Origin: Blautia luti
GTDB lineage: Bacteria; Bacillota; Clostridia; Lachnospirales; Lachnospiraceae
Length of the DNA stretch: 64,000 nt
Direction: 5' to 3'
Assembly (NCBI RefSeq): GCF_033096465.1
Contig: NZ_AP028156.1
Location: 3,056,501-3,120,500, forward strand
Shown: positions 48,252 to 56,240 of the stretch, one piece after another
How positions within the stretch are numbered: the stretch's first letter is position 1
How the letters are laid out: every line of letters starts with the position of its first letter
Program-made: the position numbers and the translations under genes
The notes under the pieces: generated by a model
Told to the model about the DNA's origin: nothing
The model's database searches: none
Seen by the model: the letters and a program-made list of their open reading frames with translations, nothing else

Positions 48252-49673
48252 TTAAATAAATTTCTGTTTCTTCGCCATCTGGACAAATTCCGCATTATTA
48301 CGGGTTCTGGCAAACATATTCAGGATCTGTTCCACCGCTTCATCAGGCTTCATTCCATTCAATGCCTTGCGCATATTGTATACAGCTTCCTGTTCTTCCT
48401 GATCCAGGAGAAGGTCTTCTCTTCGTGTTCCGGATTTCTGGATATCAATGGCAGGGAATACCCTCTTCTCCTGCAGCTTTCTGTCAAGGACAAGCTCCAT
48501 ATTTCCGGTTCCCTTAAATTCTTCGTAGATCACGTCATCCATCTTGCTGCCTGTATCTACCAGTGCTGTAGCCAGGATGGTAAGGCTTCCGCCTTCGCGC
48601 ATGTTTCTGGCTGCACCGAAGAATCTCTTCGGCATATGAAGAGCTGCAGGGTCCAGACCACCGGAAAGAGTTCTTCCGCTTGGAGGAATGATCAGGTTGT
48701 AGGCCCTGGCAAGTCTGGTGATGGAATCCAGAAGGATGGTTACGTCTTTTTTATGTTCTACCAGACGGCGTGCACGCTCCACTACCATCTCAGATACACG
48801 TTTATGGTGCTCCGGAAGCTCATCGAAGGTAGAGTAAATAACCTCTACGTTATTTCCCCTGATAGCTTCTTTTATGTCTGTAACCTCCTCCGGGCGCTCA
48901 TCGATCAGAAGGATGATCAGATGCATATCCGGATTGTTCCTCTGGATAGATTTGGCCACATCTTTCAGAAGTGTGGTCTTGCCGGCTTTCGGGGGAGATA
49001 CGATCATGCCTCGCTGGCCTTTTCCGATGGGGCTGATCAGGTCTACGATCCTCATGGCTACTGTTCCGCCAGGGCGTTCCATTACCAGACGCTCATTGGG
49101 AAAGATCGGTGTCATATCCTCGAAATTATATCTTTTCTGCCCTTCACTTGGGTGAAATCCATTGATGGATGTCACATATAACAGGGCGCTGAATTTCTCT
49201 CCCTGTGTCTTGATCCTGATGTTTCCACGGATGATATCACCGGTTTTCAGATTAAATCTGCGGATTTGGGAGGGAGATACGTAAATATCATTTTCTCCCG
49301 GAAGATAATTCTCGCAGCGGATAAATCCATATCCATCCGGAAGCACCTCCAGAATACCATCCGCCTTTTCTCCGCTGTCAAGCTGAACAGCTTCTGCCGG
49401 AACATGGTACTGGTTTCCTGCACCCTGCTGTGCATGGGCCGGTTCCTGCACTCTGTCCGGATGTCTTTCCGGAAAACGGGTTTCCTGTCTTGTTTCCTGT
49501 TTTCCTTCCATTCTGGACTCCTGTTTCTCTTCTTTTTCTCTCTGCTGCTCATCTTCTTCAAGCATACGCTCAATGAGTTCCGGTTTTCTTAATGCAGAAA
49601 TCCCTTTCAGTCCTCTGGCCTTGGCTAATTCTTTTAATGTTGCCAGAGACAATGATTCATACTTTTCTCTCAT
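48252..49673 (-). CDS. rho: Transcription termination factor Rho
   Basis: Rho is the hexameric RNA helicase that ends transcription. The 473 residues have an N-terminal Rho_N helical domain (about 1-45) and a charged Glu/Gln/Arg insert (about 45-100), larger than in E. coli. These are followed by the cold-shock RNA-binding fold ([21 protein letters not shown]), Walker A PPKAGKTT and the Q-loop/R-loop regions. Start ATG at 49673. It heads the minus-strand block to hflX. Confidence 0.96.
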
Positions 49674-49851
49674 AAAATACCTCTCTGCCTTTTCGTACTC
49701 TTATTTGGGGGTGATAACTTTATTTACTTATCGTCTGTATTTCTTTGATCTTATGGAATAAATCGTCTGAAACGACGTGGATATCAGATTTTGGCTTTAT
49801 CTTATCACATTTTATTTTCGCTGTCTACTGTCATATATCCGTAAATTGAAA

Positions 49852-49878
49852 GACCGGAAGCCCTGCTGGCTTCCGGTC
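49852..49878 (-). terminator. Terminator after the ATLF-like protease gene
   Basis: GACCGGAAGCC (49852-49862) pairs with GGCTTCCGGTC (49868-49878) over a 5-nt loop; TTTCAATTT follows on the minus strand. Confidence 0.75.
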
Positions 49879-49912
49879 CGCTATGTACGATTTCTTTTTT
49901 ATGTTTTAATTT

Positions 49913-50911
49913 CTATTTCCAGATGATGCTGTACATTTTCTTTACAGTTGCAACACGGGCATCTGTGATGCTGTCGTATGCTGCTTTTATAGCTTCATAA
50001 GTCTTCGGTCTCTGTGCTTTTAATGTTGAAGGGCTTAAGATGTATTCTTTCGCAGATTCAGCGAAATATTCTGCACTGTTCTGAGTTACATAAGCCTTAT
50101 TATAAGCTGTGTACAGGTTCTTTTCCTGATTGTATACTGCCTGGAATGCAGCTTTCGTATCTACATTTCCTGCTACGAATGCTACAAAATGACCTAACTC
50201 ATGATAAATGGCCGGATCATTGTCTCTCATAATGATCTTCTGGTTACGTGCATTGAAATAACCTGTGTAGTTAACAGAAGGATCGATCTCAACTGTAAAT
50301 CCAAGGGTTCTGAATGCTGACAGTACATTGGCTGCTTCCTTCGGAGCGATCTGACCTACCTCAACAGGTCCCTTCTGGGCTGTATTCTGTTTTTCAGTTA
50401 CTGCCGCTGTATTTCCGCTGGTGTTTGTAGTTCCTGCGGTATTGGCAGTGGATGACGCGGAGTTCTTTGCTGTAGTAGTTGTGACAACTGTTGTTGTAGT
50501 GGTTGTTGTAACTTTTTTAACTTTGGACTTCTTGGTATATTTCTCCTTTACTGCTGTTACAACTGTTTTTTTGGTTGTCACTGTTGCAGCTGTTGTTTCG
50601 CTGTTTTTCTGGCTTCTTTTCGTTTTTTTCGGCAGCGTCTTTGTATAGGATTTCTTGGCTGCTGATTTTAGTTTCACGTTCTTGGTTGATGTTTTCTTGC
50701 TTGTCTTGGTCGTTGTCTTCGGTGCTGATGCAAGAGGTGTTTCATCTTCTTCGATATTTGTTTCCAGGATCGGATCCGTATAGGATGGAAGTTCCGGTAC
50801 CTGATTCTGCTGTACAACTGCGGTTCCTCCTACTGCTACTGCAAGTAAAACCGCGGTCAGTCCAGCGGCTGCTTTTCTGTTCTTAAATAATGCTGCGAGT
50901 TTCTTTCTCAT
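49913..50911 (-). CDS. Secreted ATLF-like zinc metalloprotease with Lys/Thr-rich linker
   Basis: The 332-residue protein has an N-terminal signal/anchor (about 14-34), a low-complexity Lys/Thr/Ser region (about 60-180) probably lying in or along the wall, and a C-terminal protease-like domain. The zinc motif HELGH starts at residue 237, and the third ligand is probably in SAEYFAES (Glu 281/285), the spacing of the anthrax lethal-factor-like (M34) family. The Clostridioides difficile secreted protease PPEP-1 (Zmp1) belongs there and is also under a c-di-GMP-I riboswitch. Here too an aptamer and terminator lie upstream (51154-50981). The substrate is unknown; nearby surface proteins are candidates. 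Confidence 0.8.
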   Translation of the reverse strand: MRKKLAALFKNRKAAAGLTAVLLAVAVGGTAVVQQNQVPELPSYTDPILETNIEEDETPLASAPKTTTKTSKKTSTKNVKLKSAAKKSYTKTLPKKTKRSQKNSETTAATVTTKKTVVTAVKEKYTKKSKVKKVTTTTTTTVVTTTTAKNSASSTANTAGTTNTSGNTAAVTEKQNTAQKGPVEVGQIAPKEAANVLSAFRTLGFTVEIDPSVNYTGYFNARNQKIIMRDNDPAIYHELGHFVAFVAGNVDTKAAFQAVYNQEKNLYTAYNKAYVTQNSAEYFAESAKEYILSPSTLKAQRPKTYEAIKAAYDSITDARVATVKKMYSIIWK

Positions 50912-50980
50912 AGACCTTACACATCCTTTCTTACTGTGAACCTATATATGTGCCGGGAAATAGTACGTTTTATAGCAATA

Positions 50981-51010
50981 AAAAAACCGTTCATCCATGA
51001 TAAACGGCTA
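50981..51010 (-). terminator. Riboswitch expression-platform terminator
   Basis: On the minus strand CCGTTTATC pairs with GATGAACGG (9 bp, one G-U) and is followed by seven T residues. It stands between the c-di-GMP aptamer and the protease gene, about 70 nt before the start codon, so ligand binding can decide whether the gene is transcribed. Confidence 0.85.
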
Positions 51011-51073
51011 CCACAAAAACAAGCTGACACCTGTCAACTTTCCCTATCATCACATCACATAATAGAAATTTAA

Positions 51074-51154
51074 TGCGGCAACCGGCTGTCATAGTCTCTG
51101 CGACCTTAGACCCTTGGCTTTGCGTCCCTGCTTTTCAACAGGTTTGCCTTTGTG
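51074..51154 (-). ncRNA. Cyclic di-GMP-I (GEMM-I) riboswitch aptamer
   Basis: Read on the minus strand the element contains the class hallmarks in order: AGGCAAACC, a GAAA tetraloop (tetraloop-receptor partner), GGGACGCAAAGCC, GGGTCTAAGG and the closing CAGCCGGTTGCC. The G preceding GCAAACC matches the base reported to favour c-di-GMP over cGAMP in this fold. A promoter starts transcription right at its 5' edge and a terminator follows. Class assignment is firm; on or off direction is not determined. Confidence 0.93.
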
Positions 51155-51158
51155 TATA

Positions 51159-51188
51159 AGTATATCTCCCCGGATAGCATTTTGTCAA
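51159..51188 (-). promoter_or_regulatory. Promoter of the riboswitch-protease transcript
   Basis: Consensus TTGACA (51183-51188), an 18-bp spacer and TATACT (51159-51164) place the start near 51152, just at the 5' end of the aptamer. Confidence 0.85.
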
Positions 51189-51343: not shown

Positions 51344-52264
51344 ATGCCAAATTTCCATTCTGCCCGCCCCCTTATCCTGCTGATCCTCATTCCTGTCCTT
51401 CTGTTTACAGGATGCGGCTCCTCCGGCAGCGATCCGGATGAACCGCCGGTCTATTCCCCCCTTCAGGTTCTGGTACCTGAAGCACCGGGCAAAAAAACTC
51501 TGGGAACTTCCCCACTGGTCCTGGATATCTCTGATACAGATCAGGGCTATCTCACTGCTGTCTCAGATTCCACAGATCAGATGATGAACGTTCAGCTTAC
51601 CGCTGAAGACGGGGTTGTCTATTCCTATTTTATCAGTCCCGGGGAAAGCGCTGTTATTCCTTTTTCCAGTGGAAGCAGCACTTACCAGGTCAGCTGCTAC
51701 CAGCAGATCAGCGATTCCCAGTATGCAGCACTTTATGCTGATACCCTGGAAATAAAACTTGCCAATGAATTTCTGCCATTTCTCTATCCGAACCAGTACG
51801 TAAACTTTACTCCGGATTCAGAAGCCAGTAAGCTGGCCCTTTCCATGGTATCTGAAGATACCTCAGATATTGATGCCCTTCAGACCATTTATAATTATGT
51901 AGTTTCTCATGTAACCTACGATTATGATCTGGCAGATACTGTAGCTTCCGGATACCTTCCTGATGTAGATGAGACCCTGCAGACAGGCAAAGGGATCTGC
52001 TTCGATTACGCAGCCCTTACTACAGCCATGCTCAGAAGCTGCGACATTCCCTGCAAGCTTCAGATAGGATATGCCGGGGATATCAAACATGCATGGATCA
52101 ATGTCTATATCCGTTCCAGAGGCTGGGTTGACAAGGCTGTAGAATTCAGCGGTGACTCCTGGTCACGTATGGACCCTACCTTCGACTCCAACAGCGAAGA
52201 CAAGGATACTATCCAGGAATACATAGGGGACAATAACAATTACACCGTACAGTTTACAAGATAG
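51344..52264 (+). CDS. Transglutaminase-like lipoprotein
   Basis: The 306-residue exported lipoprotein has a signal peptide with lipobox LLFTGC, a Pro/Asp-rich spacer, a beta-rich middle and a C-terminal transglutaminase-like domain. The catalytic triad is visible: Cys in GKGICFDYAALT, His in IKHAWINVY and Asp in RMDPTFDSN. Such proteins act as surface proteases or crosslinkers. AAGGAGCGAACAA puts the start at 51344, although the frame is open far upstream through the riboswitch promoter region. It is divergent from the riboswitch-controlled protease and 33 nt before the pilC-like gene, so it heads the pilus-like operon. Confidence 0.85.
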   Translation: MPNFHSARPLILLILIPVLLFTGCGSSGSDPDEPPVYSPLQVLVPEAPGKKTLGTSPLVLDISDTDQGYLTAVSDSTDQMMNVQLTAEDGVVYSYFISPGESAVIPFSSGSSTYQVSCYQQISDSQYAALYADTLEIKLANEFLPFLYPNQYVNFTPDSEASKLALSMVSEDTSDIDALQTIYNYVVSHVTYDYDLADTVASGYLPDVDETLQTGKGICFDYAALTTAMLRSCDIPCKLQIGYAGDIKHAWINVYIRSRGWVDKAVEFSGDSWSRMDPTFDSNSEDKDTIQEYIGDNNNYTVQFTR

Positions 52265-52297: not shown

Positions 52298-53341
52298 ATG
52301 AAAAACAAATTCACTGATCAGGAACTTTTTCATTTCTGTGAACAGTTTTCCATTCTTCTTCACTCCGGCATCTCCTGCGCAGAGGGACTTTCCCTTATGC
52401 AGGAAGACAGCCGCACCCAGCAGGGGAAGGATTTCTTCCAGTCCCTTCTGAATGATTTCGAAGAGAATGGCTCTTTTGCCACAGCGCTGGAACATTCCGG
52501 AAAGTTTCCCTCTTCCATGATCTCCTATGTGAAAATAGGCGAAGAAACCGGCTGTCTGGACGAAGTATTAAAAAGCCTTTCCCGCCACTATGAACAGGAA
52601 CTGGAAATTTCCGAAACGATCCGCAGTGCAGTCACCTATCCGTTGCTGATGCTGGTGATGATGGCCGCCGTGATCGTGATCCTGCTTGTCAAAGTCCTGC
52701 CTGTATTCCAGCAGGTTTTCCGGCAGATGGGACTTGAAATGAATAATTTTTCCAACGGACTTTTAAATGCAGGAAATCTGATCTCCCGCTACTCTGCCGC
52801 AGCCCTGATCCTTGTTCTTGTGCTGATGGCAGGCTTCGCCGTATTATTTTTCACCGACAGGGGACGGACATTTCTGAGCAGACTTTCCGGCAGGCTCCCC
52901 TTTATCAGGGAAATCGCCGTTTCCACAGATTATGCCAGACTGACACAGGCCATCGCCATGGGACTTCACAGCGGAATGGATCATATGATCACCCTGGAAA
53001 TGGCCCAGGAACTGATCTCTCAGGAATCTGTCAAGGAGAAAATCCCAAAAGCGATCCACCTTTTGGAAGAAGGAGCACTTCTGGAGGACGCACTGTCGGA
53101 AGCCGGACTCTTCGAGGGAATGGACGCCAGACTGATCACAGTCGGACTTCGCGCCGGTGCTGCAGATGAGGTTATGACCAGCCTTGCAGACCGCTACAGA
53201 GATTCTTCCCTGAATGTCACAGGTAATATCATTTCCATAGTAGAACCTACTATTGTAATCATCTTCTCTCTTCTGGTAGGTCTGGTACTTCTGTCAGTAA
53301 TGATGCCGCTGCTTGGCATTCTTTCTAAAATTGTTGTCTGA
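52298..53341 (+). CDS. Type IV pilus / type II secretion inner-membrane platform protein (PilC/GspF-like)
   Basis: The 347-residue platform protein has two GspF repeats (about 10-130 and 205-330), each helical with paired E-rich motifs (KIGEETGCLDEVL and VGLRAGAADEVM), and membrane spans near 110-135, 160-185 and 310-340. It would couple the ATPase to the pilin fibre. It is slightly shorter than classical PilC (about 400). The ATG at 52298 follows the transglutaminase gene; the next gene starts 10 nt after its stop. Confidence 0.9.
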   Translation: MKNKFTDQELFHFCEQFSILLHSGISCAEGLSLMQEDSRTQQGKDFFQSLLNDFEENGSFATALEHSGKFPSSMISYVKIGEETGCLDEVLKSLSRHYEQELEISETIRSAVTYPLLMLVMMAAVIVILLVKVLPVFQQVFRQMGLEMNNFSNGLLNAGNLISRYSAAALILVLVLMAGFAVLFFTDRGRTFLSRLSGRLPFIREIAVSTDYARLTQAIAMGLHSGMDHMITLEMAQELISQESVKEKIPKAIHLLEEGALLEDALSEAGLFEGMDARLITVGLRAGAADEVMTSLADRYRDSSLNVTGNIISIVEPTIVIIFSLLVGLVLLSVMMPLLGILSKIVV

Positions 53342-53351
53342 GGAGGCTGCC

Positions 53352-53702
53352 ATGGATTTATTTGAACCAACCGGCAGACGGGTCCGGCGGCAGATCCGAC
53401 ACTTTCTGCCTGTATTTGTCCTTGCCGTGCTGTTCCTGGTCTTTTATCTGGGGATTTCCGTTGCAGGAACAGAAGCTGTTAATAAAGAACAGACCACTTT
53501 GAAGCAGGCCTTAGAGCAGGGTGCTATCCGTACCTATGCCATGACCGGGCAGTATCCCCAGAGCCTGGATGAGCTTCTGAATGATTACCATATTACCTAT
53601 GACTCTGACAAATTTGTAGTGGAGTATGTTCCAAACAGTTCCAATCTGCTCCCCTCCATCAGTGTTCTGATACTTTCTTCTCAGAAGGGAGGTCCGTCAT
53701 GA
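53352..53702 (+). CDS. Small membrane-anchored pilin-like protein
   Basis: The 116-residue protein has a basic N-terminus (RRVRRQIR), one membrane span (about 18-38) and a short helical then strand domain. The piece GAIRTYAMTGQYPQSLDELLNDY resembles the post-helix region of type II secretion pseudopilins. A normal prepilin cleavage motif with Glu+5 is not evident. AGGAGG sets the start at 53352. The stop overlaps the next ATG. Specific role unknown. Confidence 0.7.
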   Translation: MDLFEPTGRRVRRQIRHFLPVFVLAVLFLVFYLGISVAGTEAVNKEQTTLKQALEQGAIRTYAMTGQYPQSLDELLNDYHITYDSDKFVVEYVPNSSNLLPSISVLILSSQKGGPS

Positions 53703-54193
53703 ACCGTAATTCCAGACGCAGTCATTCCATTGATACGCTTTTTGTCATCACCCTTCTGGGACTGTTCCTGATCTTTCTGCTGATGATGCTGCTTTTTTCC
53801 ACCCAGGCATACCGGACAGCTGTAGAAGGAAATCAGGAGAATAACAATCTTTATACAGCCTCTGCCTATATTACAGAGAAATTCCGGCAGCATGACAGCA
53901 GTCAGTCAGTGTCTCTGGATACCCTGGACAATCTTCCTGCATTCTGCATGACAGATACCATAGACGGAACTTCTTATGTTACCTACATTTATCTGCTGGA
54001 TCACCAGCTGAAAGAACTTTTTACTGCAAAAGGCAACGTCCCTTCTCCAGAAATGGGAACGTCCATCGCCAGTCTGGAAACCTTTCAGGCAGAGGAAACA
54101 TCAGAGGGTTTTTACCGGATCTCCATGGAAGACCTGCAGGGACATACCACAAGCCTGCTGCTTCATCCCGGCCCGCCTGTAACTTCAGAATGA
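53699..54193 (+). CDS. DUF4860-like membrane-anchored protein
   Basis: The 164-residue protein has one long membrane span (about 13-35) and an external alpha/beta domain. It resembles the DUF4860 proteins that accompany PilC- and PilT-like genes in Lachnospiraceae. No Glu+5 prepilin motif is seen. ATGA overlap with the gene before it. Probable pilus-fibre or platform component, by context only. Confidence 0.7.
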   Translation: MNRNSRRSHSIDTLFVITLLGLFLIFLLMMLLFSTQAYRTAVEGNQENNNLYTASAYITEKFRQHDSSQSVSLDTLDNLPAFCMTDTIDGTSYVTYIYLLDHQLKELFTAKGNVPSPEMGTSIASLETFQAEETSEGFYRISMEDLQGHTTSLLLHPGPPVTSE

Positions 54194-54211
54194 CATGAAA
54201 GGGAGGAACTT

Positions 54212-54688
54212 ATGCGTAAATTGTACAACCACTCAAAATCCACCTTGTTCCTGATGGAAATGATCCTGTCTATTCTGATCCTTTCTCTAACCTGCACTGC
54301 CTGTGTACAGATCTTCGCAGCTGCCAGAAATAACCGTGAGAAAGCACGACAGTACAACCACATCCAGGAACTGACTGTCTGTGCAGAAGAGGTTCTGGAA
54401 GGATGGGACGGCCGGAATGAAACTTTCACAGACCTTCTGCCCTGCAGTACCCAGACAGAAGATACCCTCCAGTACTTCTATGATTGGAACTGGGAACTGT
54501 GCGAAAAAGCAGATGTCTGCTATACCATGACTATCCGGCTGAAAACTTCCAACCTGGAAAAAAGTGCTGATCTGGCCTTCACAGATCAGAAAGGTAACAG
54601 TCTGTATCAGACTTCCATTGCCTTTCCTTTTCAATCAGAAAATATGTCCTCATCCAACTCCGTTTCAGAAAGGAACACCTCAGAATGA
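54212..54688 (+). CDS. Prepilin-like (minor pseudopilin) protein
   Basis: The 158-residue protein has a class III-type N-terminus: a short basic leader, then STLFLMEMILSILILSLT, with a Glu placed like Glu+5 of type IV pilins at the edge of the hydrophobic helix. The external domain has several cysteines. It is the best prepilin candidate of the cluster. GGGAGG lies upstream; the stop overlaps the next start. Confidence 0.72.
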   Translation: MRKLYNHSKSTLFLMEMILSILILSLTCTACVQIFAAARNNREKARQYNHIQELTVCAEEVLEGWDGRNETFTDLLPCSTQTEDTLQYFYDWNWELCEKADVCYTMTIRLKTSNLEKSADLAFTDQKGNSLYQTSIAFPFQSENMSSSNSVSERNTSE

Positions 54689-55182
54689 ATAAACGAAGAA
54701 CACAATTTCTTTCCATGGGAATTCCATCTATGTTCGTTATTTTCTCAGTTCTGTGTCTGGTGATCCTGGCGCTTCTCACCCTGGGAACTTCCAGGCAGGA
54801 TCTGCAGGCTGCACAGGTTTCCCTGAAGCAGACCACCGACTACTGCAATGCCTGTACACAGGCCAGTGCACAGTATCAGAATATTGTTGCTGCAGCCAGG
54901 GACGCAGCTTGCGCTTCCTCTGACAAATCAGATTATCTTTCCCGTATGAAAAATCTCGTAAAAGATTTTTCTGATATTTCCCTGACATGGGACAGCACAA
55001 ACCAGACCGCTTCTTTTGTCTTAGACTACTCAGACAGCCAGGGACTGTATGTGGAATTTCAGCTTTCCTGGCCTGCTCAGGATTCCTCTTTCTCGCCGCA
55101 GCTTCTCACCTGGAAGACTGTCACCACCGGAACCTGGAATCCCAATAACAGACAGCCCGTATATAAAGGAGAACAATCATGA
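54685..55182 (+). CDS. Membrane-anchored pilus-cluster protein
   Basis: The 165-residue protein has a basic start (MNKRRTQ), one membrane span (about 14-35), an amphipathic helix (SRQDLQAAQVSLKQTTDYC) and a C-terminal beta-rich part with Trp residues. Not recognised beyond its cluster. ATGA overlaps on both sides (54685 and 55179) show strict co-translation with its neighbours. Confidence 0.65.
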   Translation: MNKRRTQFLSMGIPSMFVIFSVLCLVILALLTLGTSRQDLQAAQVSLKQTTDYCNACTQASAQYQNIVAAARDAACASSDKSDYLSRMKNLVKDFSDISLTWDSTNQTASFVLDYSDSQGLYVEFQLSWPAQDSSFSPQLLTWKTVTTGTWNPNNRQPVYKGEQS

Positions 55183-56240
55183 CCGAACAGATCATACCTG
55201 ATTATTTATCTTATGCTACCGAAAACCATGCATCCGATATCTTTATCATTGCAGGACGTCCCCTTTCTGTAAAGATCGACGGTAAAATGTCCATCTTCGG
55301 AGAACGTCTTATGCCGGACGATACAGACCGTCTAATCCACCAGATCTATTCTATGGCAGGAAACCGAAATATTGACCCTTTCCTTCAGACAGGAGACGAT
55401 GATTTCTCCTTCTCTATCCCCGGTCTCTCCAGATTCCGTGTCAATGCCTATCGTCAGAGAGGTTCCCTGGCTGCTGTGATCCGTGTGATCGCTTTCGATC
55501 TTCCGAATCCGGATATTCTCCATATCCCGGAAGAAGTAATGTCCGCAGCTGATTTCACCAAAGGCATGGTTCTGGTCACAGGCCCTGCTGGAAGCGGTAA
55601 ATCCACCACCATGGCATGTATCGTAGACAGGATCAACCACTCCAGGGAAGGACATATCATCACTCTGGAAGATCCTCTGGAATACCTGCACCGCCATGAT
55701 AAATGTATTGTCAGCCAGCGTGAGATCTGCACAGATACAGAAAGCTATCTGGTATCCCTGCGCGCCACACTGCGCCAGAGCCCGGATGTGATCCTTCTTG
55801 GCGAAATGCGTGATTACGAAACCATCCAGACTGCCATGACAGCTGCCGAAACCGGTCATCTGGTTCTCTCAAGCCTGCATACTACAGGCGCAGCCAACAC
55901 CATCGGCAGGATCGTAGATGTTTTTGAACCCAGCCAGCAGCGACAGGTTTCTATCCAGCTGTCCATGGTACTTCAGGCAGTCATCTCCCAGCAGCTGGTA
56001 CCGGATATCAACGGACATAACATCCCTGTCTTCGAAGTCATGCGCTTGAACCCGGCCATCCGCAATATGATCCGCGATAATAAAGTCCACCAGATCGACG
56101 GTGTGATCTCTTCTTCTGCCCACGAAGGCATGCGCGCCATGGATCAGAGCCTTCTGGAACTTTATAAACAGGGACGCATTACCAGAGAAACCGCATTGAA
56201 ATACGCTTCCAACGGAGATATGCTGAAGCGGAAACTGTAA
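55179..56240 (+). CDS. pilT: PilT-family twitching ATPase
   Basis: PilT drives pilus retraction. The 353 residues show Walker A GPAGSGKST, the Asp box ITLEDPLEY, Walker B SPDVILLGEMRD, the His box GHLVLSSLHTTGA and, near the C-terminus, AIRNMIRDNK, a close version of the PilT-specific AIRNLIRE motif; PilB lacks that. It is the only motor ATPase in this operon. The start overlaps the previous gene (ATGA). A strong terminator follows. Confidence 0.93.
   Translation: MTEQIIPDYLSYATENHASDIFIIAGRPLSVKIDGKMSIFGERLMPDDTDRLIHQIYSMAGNRNIDPFLQTGDDDFSFSIPGLSRFRVNAYRQRGSLAAVIRVIAFDLPNPDILHIPEEVMSAADFTKGMVLVTGPAGSGKSTTMACIVDRINHSREGHIITLEDPLEYLHRHDKCIVSQREICTDTESYLVSLRATLRQSPDVILLGEMRDYETIQTAMTAAETGHLVLSSLHTTGAANTIGRIVDVFEPSQQRQVSIQLSMVLQAVISQQLVPDINGHNIPVFEVMRLNPAIRNMIRDNKVHQIDGVISSSAHEGMRAMDQSLLELYKQGRITRETALKYASNGDMLKRKL

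Follow-up and report, generated by a model that had tools for sequence, protein, structure and literature searches.

Two questions are raised by this locus: in which direction does c-di-GMP switch the protease gene that lies behind its riboswitch, and which protein does the protease cut? The window analysed here is the whole 64,000-nucleotide stretch of Blautia luti DNA. From the sequence alone, the original prediction had placed on its minus strand a complete unit of promoter, GEMM-I aptamer, terminator with seven T and protease gene, and had drawn a parallel with PPEP-1 of C. difficile. Each element was checked separately, and the unit was borne out. Our preferred reading, with a probability of about 0.48, is that an exported protease of the ATLF/PPEP type is governed by a c-di-GMP-I riboswitch of the OFF kind, and that its main target would be the adjacent transglutaminase-like lipoprotein.

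The promoter (TTGACA-18-TATACT; 51159..51188, minus strand) was assigned by consensus match, with agreement at 11 of 12 positions. It is followed by the c-di-GMP-I riboswitch aptamer (51074..51158, minus strand). A covariance-model search confirmed this aptamer class: RF01051 matched over its full length (model positions 1-87 of 87) with 80.9 bits, compared to a gathering threshold of 35 bits. Sub-threshold Rfam matches in the leader were regarded as chance. The intrinsic terminator (50980..51009, minus strand) consists of an 11-pair stem, a 3-nt loop and seven T, with a hairpin energy of -11.9 kcal/mol. The folded leader was more stable than 200 of 200 shuffles (z -4.0). A second terminator-like hairpin was also seen between the aptamer and the main terminator, at window positions 51040-51021 (minus strand).

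The direction of the switch was deduced from base pairing. The last 11 bases of the aptamer, CGGUUGCCGCA (51074..51084, minus strand), form the predicted 5' arm of an antiterminator, and UGUGGUAGCCG (51005..51015, minus strand) its predicted 3' arm. The two arms can pair over 11 uninterrupted bp (duplex -17.0 kcal/mol). Because the last five bases of UGUGGUAGCCG begin the terminator stem, the antiterminator and terminator helices are mutually exclusive. The expression platform is coupled to the aptamer, by pairing only, through the overlap of the antiterminator with both aptamer and terminator. From this pairing we infer that the protease riboswitch should be of the OFF type, with the ligand freeing the terminator arm and stopping transcription. 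When the whole leader was folded without ligand, forcing the terminator gave -59.8 and forcing the antiterminator -55.6. The terminator fold thus beats the antiterminator fold energetically, and the balance between OFF and ON must therefore be kinetic, set by the order of synthesis.

Conservation of this layout was assayed within the genus. A c-di-GMP-I match was present in 39 of 64 genomes, and one locus was taken for 30 of these 39. Twenty-seven of the 30 loci were of the protease type; one (L008) ends at a contig edge and two (L034, L036) have other genes. The protease gene itself was read at two of the 27 loci (L011, L012) and inferred from position and length at the remaining 25, which include the own-genome copy, whose sequence the window shows. 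The pairing test covered 25 of the 27 loci, L010 and L024 having too little readable leader. Between the aptamer 3' strand and the terminator arm, an uninterrupted helix of 10 bp or more was possible at 19 of the 25 loci versus 1.3% of dinucleotide shuffles, and one of 8 bp or more at 22 of the 25 versus 20% of shuffles. The mean uninterrupted pairing was 10.1 bp in the loci and 6.7 bp in the shuffles. Three loci (L016, L017, L021), with 7 uninterrupted bp, were no better than shuffles, and three others (L025, L028, L033), with 8-9 bp, were matched by 6-14 of 100 shuffles. Altogether, these comparisons suggest that an OFF-type platform is conserved across much of the genus.

The spacer of these leaders showed a further feature. 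A block near UUAAAUUCCGAUUUAGUGACGU, just 3' of the aptamer and within the loop enclosed by the predicted antiterminator, is strikingly similar across many loci of the genus (L010, L013, L015-L021, L024 and others), and window positions 51016-51073 (minus strand) hold a divergent copy of it. An Rfam search of the window leader gave no match for this block.

The genome (3.74 Mb, one contig) contains five c-di-GMP-I matches. A search of it for c-di-GMP-II aptamers gave no match, which does not establish absence, since no control gave a signal. One of the five c-di-GMP-I matches (G000:C1:3412969-3413098; 53.7 bits) precedes a sortase-pilus cluster (L037:4479-16577, G000:C1:3396000-3415500), in which the aptamer is followed by a small ORF, a signal peptidase, a 2124-aa LPETG protein, a pilin carrying GramPos_pilinBB and SpaA domains, two sortases and a pilin-like protein. 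Gene order and strand suggest that they form one operon. The terminator of this operon includes the aptamer 3' strand in a 17-pair helix, so the ligand should block termination here. This would be an ON-type layout, opposite to that of the protease. An ON-type c-di-GMP-I layout, with the aptamer 3' strand repeated in the terminator, was also observed at L036 (G326). Three other aptamers of the genome (L038, L039, L040) adjoin large signalling-type genes. By eye, at least one of these genes encodes a GGDEF motif, which would point to feedback control.

The gene behind the predicted OFF-type leader (49913..50911, minus strand) encodes an ATLF/PPEP-like zinc protease of 332 aa, which is probably exported. 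Residues 1-34 (50810..50911, minus strand), with a basic start, a hydrophobic core and no Cys, were assigned by eye and would act as a signal peptide or signal anchor. Residues 63-150 (50462..50725, minus strand) form a basic Lys/Thr-rich region, in agreement with the long Lys/Thr stretch described originally, and are identical to two relatives at 50/88 and 44/88 positions. The catalytic domain, delimited by profile and predicted structure, spans residues 186-332 (49916..50356, minus strand) and holds the HELGH zinc-binding motif at residues 237-241 (50189..50203, minus strand). Further downstream lie Y274, the candidate oxyanion Tyr, and E281, the candidate third zinc ligand (50069..50092, minus strand). 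The spacing from E238 is 36 residues to Y274 and 43 to E281, as for E154, Y190 and E197 of PPEP-3.

The M34/ATLF-like family named in the original prediction was examined by profile and by structure. PF07737 (ATLF) matched with 37.2 bits, above its curated cut-off of 27.4 bits. This profile is described as covering an N- and a C-terminal domain; the match comprised residues 236-310 only, in one stretch, and the N-terminal half of the protease is Lys/Thr-rich. As this low-confidence N-terminal half blurred the Foldseek search of the full-length model, the catalytic domain was predicted alone. Structure prediction then gave the C-terminal domain the fold shared by Pro-Pro endopeptidases (PPEPs) and the lethal factor catalytic domain, with HExxH and the downstream Glu present. 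The highest structural Z was that of the lethal factor catalytic domain, with which the PPEPs were tied. Both approaches thus uphold the family assignment. The domain has about 41 fewer residues before HExxH than PPEP-1, in the region where the substrate-covering S-loop would lie. Judged from alignment ranges, no clear equivalent of an S-loop with Trp/Tyr at PPEP-1 residue 103 was seen. An ATLF search of 299 genomes gave matches in at least two. The same family gave no match in the own genome, where the protease gene is unreadable, so this result does not speak for absence. Two other genera of the family have divergent ATLF-like proteins, one of 240 aa (L006 in G262) and one of 224 aa (L007 in G267), neither with a Lys/Thr region.

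The protease gene is followed by a terminator-like hairpin (49851..49879, minus strand) and by a gene named from its sequence as transcription terminator Rho (48252..49673, minus strand). On the other side, a divergent gene encodes the proposed substrate, a transglutaminase-like lipoprotein (51344..52264, plus strand; Transglut_core 77 bits). It is followed by a type IV pilus-like cluster (52298..56240, plus strand) with a PilC-like T2SSF protein (52298, plus strand), small membrane proteins that are pilin-like by eye (plus strand) and a T2SSE ATPase that is PilT-like by eye (55179, plus strand). Neighbourhoods were compared at 34 aptamer loci (27 of the protease type), own locus included, over about 1.5 kb on each side. 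Since these loci are short, the counts are lower bounds: a Rho start was found downstream in at least 10 of the 34, the lipoprotein upstream in at least 21, and at least 22 loci, all of the protease type, have a PilC-like gene in the vicinity. Outside the genus, 103 of 107 loci with the lipoprotein also have a PilC-like gene in its neighbourhood.

The lipoprotein carries a candidate cleavage site. Its start reads FTGC-GSSGSDPDEPPVYSPLQVLVP and includes E-P-P-V-Y (51440..51454, plus strand), where the cut would fall between the two prolines, the first of which is 10 residues past the lipid Cys. Within the genus, the linker was read in 30 loci plus G327, with two readings of G302; other genera contributed 107 loci. 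These 107 come from the 106 best-scoring of 132 other family genomes with the lipoprotein, themselves found among 397 genomes drawn from a larger group; the sample leaves aside the 26 genomes with the lowest scores and a second copy in two cases. Two of the 107 have an upstream stretch of less than 400 bases, and 24 have no lipid Cys by pattern. In other genera, a locus was counted as lacking the unit when neither an HExGH frame nor an unreadable stretch was present upstream, up to 1.7 kb; at one locus (L117), which has no motif, an unreadable stretch occupies the unit's place.

The motif PP[VSLAI][YFI] was found in the linker of 24 of the 27 genomes with both unit and lipoprotein. It was present in 21 of 23 genomes with the unit adjacent, and in three of four (G334, G312 and G335, not G327) whose unit is at a different place in the genome or on a separate contig. 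The three exceptions are G302 (ELPVF), G323 and G327. Conversely, none of the 110 loci without a recognised unit had the motif, neither the three in the genus (G324, G329, G333) nor the 107 in other genera. In these other genera, PP of another kind occurs in 14 of 107 loci, and RDNTPxVLxP is a frequent text. G348, which has the motif on a contig that ends before the unit's place, was excluded from both counts. Over 25 motif-bearing rows (the 24 plus G348), P2 is Glu in 21, P2' is Val in 21 and P3' is Tyr or Phe in 23. The linker nearer the lipid Cys varies, and the first Pro lies 9-13 residues from this Cys; the residues after the motif are also conserved.

Distance between unit and lipoprotein differs among the exceptions to adjacency: in G334 (L091) and G312 (L096) they are about 11 kb apart on the same contig and the PP site is kept, and in G327 (L218) they lie on different contigs and the site is absent. 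In G262 and G267, the ATLF-like genes are on contigs other than those of the lipoproteins (L124, L153), which do not have the motif.

In the readable part of the own genome, EPPV[YF] codons gave nine matches, compared to one for a reversed-pattern control. Only two ORFs of more than 100 aa contained them: the lipoprotein and a 352-aa enzyme that resembles PlsX and is presumably cytosolic. EPPL[YF], with CTN leucine, gave two matches that were discarded, as both lie in frames resembling cytosolic enzymes.

A tree of the lipoprotein domain without its linker (41 rows, ten from other genera) grouped every motif-bearing protein into a single clade, in which 25 of the 27 rows have the motif. The co-occurrence of motif and unit therefore counts as one event, maintained across much divergence (about 51-82% identity to the window lipoprotein), and a Fisher test of this association was discarded for the same reason. 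Moreover, as the block after the motif is conserved too, a structural role of the PP block is possible. In this clade, PPV[YF] could then simply serve as the structural beginning of the lipoprotein domain, and the protease would have another target or be inactive. Together with the single origin of the motif, the trimmed loop region before HExxH would fit this explanation, as would the precedent of CD1597 of C. difficile, for which no activity was reported to be detectable although its HExxH is intact (PMC11460543), and which also calls for broader caution on activity. However, a similar downstream block, TPxVLxP, is found in many loci of other genera without the PP block, and the two relatives that could be read in the genus both keep the zinc ligands and the Tyr of the protease. 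We consider a purely structural motif rather unlikely.

The original prediction favored surface adhesins as substrates, and the protease could indeed release LPXTG adhesins or pili as PPEP-1 does, the candidates being the 2124-aa tip adhesin and other wall-anchored proteins. The aptamer of the sortase-pilus operon, with its opposite logic, would suit such a role, and the single PP of the tip adhesin, AEPPKV at residue 1958 of 2124, sits on the wall side. This site, however, has no Val at P2' and neither Pro nor an aromatic residue at P3'. In a scan of nine wall-anchor-type proteins of the own genome (one clipped at its start), none of the seven PP sites was of the XXPPXP form of known PPEPs. 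The C-terminal 400 residues of the adhesin had partial weak matches (27-56% identity over parts) in 11 of the 63 other genomes of the genus, where the protease unit is widespread. A wall-anchor-type protein of 2245 aa (L075:2148-8885, minus strand) carries EEPPLY at residues 40-45, near the start of the mature chain; the broader motif is thus not unique to the lipoprotein, but a cut at this end, far from the anchor, would free almost nothing. These observations weaken the case for an adhesin, which we now find unlikely; the conserved linker motif speaks more for the adjacent lipoprotein. That the protease acts on proteins of a host or of other microbes would agree with its probable export and with the top structural Z of the lethal factor catalytic domain, tied as it is with the PPEPs, but is highly improbable: the enzyme has just 332 aa, the profile found no second ATLF stretch in it, its basic region could keep it at the cell, and many of its loci have a PilC-like gene nearby.

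Against the lipoprotein as substrate, E-P-P-V-Y lacks the Pro that PPEP-1 and PPEP-2 have at P3' in their natural sites. According to the part of the source considered here, PPEP-1 and PPEP-2 cut before Pro-Val in substrates encoded by adjacent genes. Peptides that combine Val at P2' with a residue other than Pro at P3' were also cleaved by PPEP-2, whereas Tyr or Phe at P3' was accepted by PPEP-1 in a context for which Pro at P2' is considered necessary (PMC10413326).

If the lipoprotein is the target, the locus could work as follows. With c-di-GMP bound, the aptamer would keep its 3' strand, the terminator would form and the protease gene would be silent. Without c-di-GMP, this strand would pair with the terminator 5' arm and the gene would be read. 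The exported protease would be held near the membrane or wall by its N-terminus and basic Lys/Thr region, and would cut between the prolines of E-P-P-V-Y/F beside the lipid anchor, so that the lipoprotein would be shed from the cell surface at low c-di-GMP. Wall attachment, as supposed in the original prediction, would not in itself be new, since PPEPs joined to the wall through extra domains appear in the published account (PMC12828418). The sortase-pilus operon would be switched oppositely by an aptamer of the same class. We propose only tentatively the wider picture of riboswitch-controlled shedding of a type IV pilus-linked lipoprotein, in which the pair arose in one lineage and the protease is off when the sortase pilus is on.

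The riboswitch-protease unit is real, and its aptamer and fold are ordinary. Two points go beyond the first reading: the predicted OFF platform, which much of the genus shares and to which a class I pilus switch would run opposite, and a specific candidate substrate site in the adjacent lipoprotein. Sequence comparison thereby names one leading candidate cleavage site for a PPEP-like protease. If the proposal is true, c-di-GMP-controlled shedding by a PPEP-like protease would reach beyond C. difficile to a clade in another genus. Its target would be a lipoprotein associated with a type IV pilus-like cluster, and one aptamer class would serve both the ON and OFF branches. It would also provide a first functional handle on the transglutaminase-like lipoprotein of such clusters. 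Among the papers listed in a literature search, no title or abstract opening described the protease-lipoprotein pair; a 2021 PPEP domain phylogeny may list the protein.

Among known systems, anthrax lethal factor (M34) shares 18% identity with the protease, whose residues 236-310 alone match the ATLF profile. Unlike lethal factor, the protease is the product of a single riboswitch-controlled gene beside a pilus-like cluster. PPEP-2 of P. alvei and PPEP-3 of G. thermodenitrificans are 18-25% identical to it over the aligned domain and, in contrast to the protease described here, are presented in the sections of the sources considered without mention of a riboswitch. According to the corresponding section, PPEP-3 and PPEP-4 have neither an identified natural substrate nor an identified function (PMC12828418). 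CD1597 resembles our protein in having a PPEP-like domain with an N-terminal extension and an intact HExxH; it differs in that, as far as its source was covered, it has no signal peptide, is found in spores and is not mentioned with a riboswitch.

The closest parallel is PPEP-1 (Zmp1, CD2830). In C. difficile, class I c-di-GMP riboswitches are described as OFF and class II as ON, PPEP-1 being under a class I OFF switch and controlled inversely to its adhesins (PMC11477304, in the part considered). The parallel drawn originally therefore holds for the aptamer class and the predicted OFF direction, and extends to the ATLF/PPEP fold and to a candidate substrate that is encoded by the neighbouring gene and carries Pro-Pro-Val close to its anchor. 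The two systems differ in several respects. Instead of an LPXTG adhesin, the substrate proposed here is a lipoprotein whose gene adjoins a type IV pilus-like cluster; its site has Tyr or Phe at P3', and the protease has an extra Lys/Thr region and a shorter N-terminal half of its domain. Finally, the oppositely switched surface operon uses a class I aptamer in this genome, where C. difficile uses class II.
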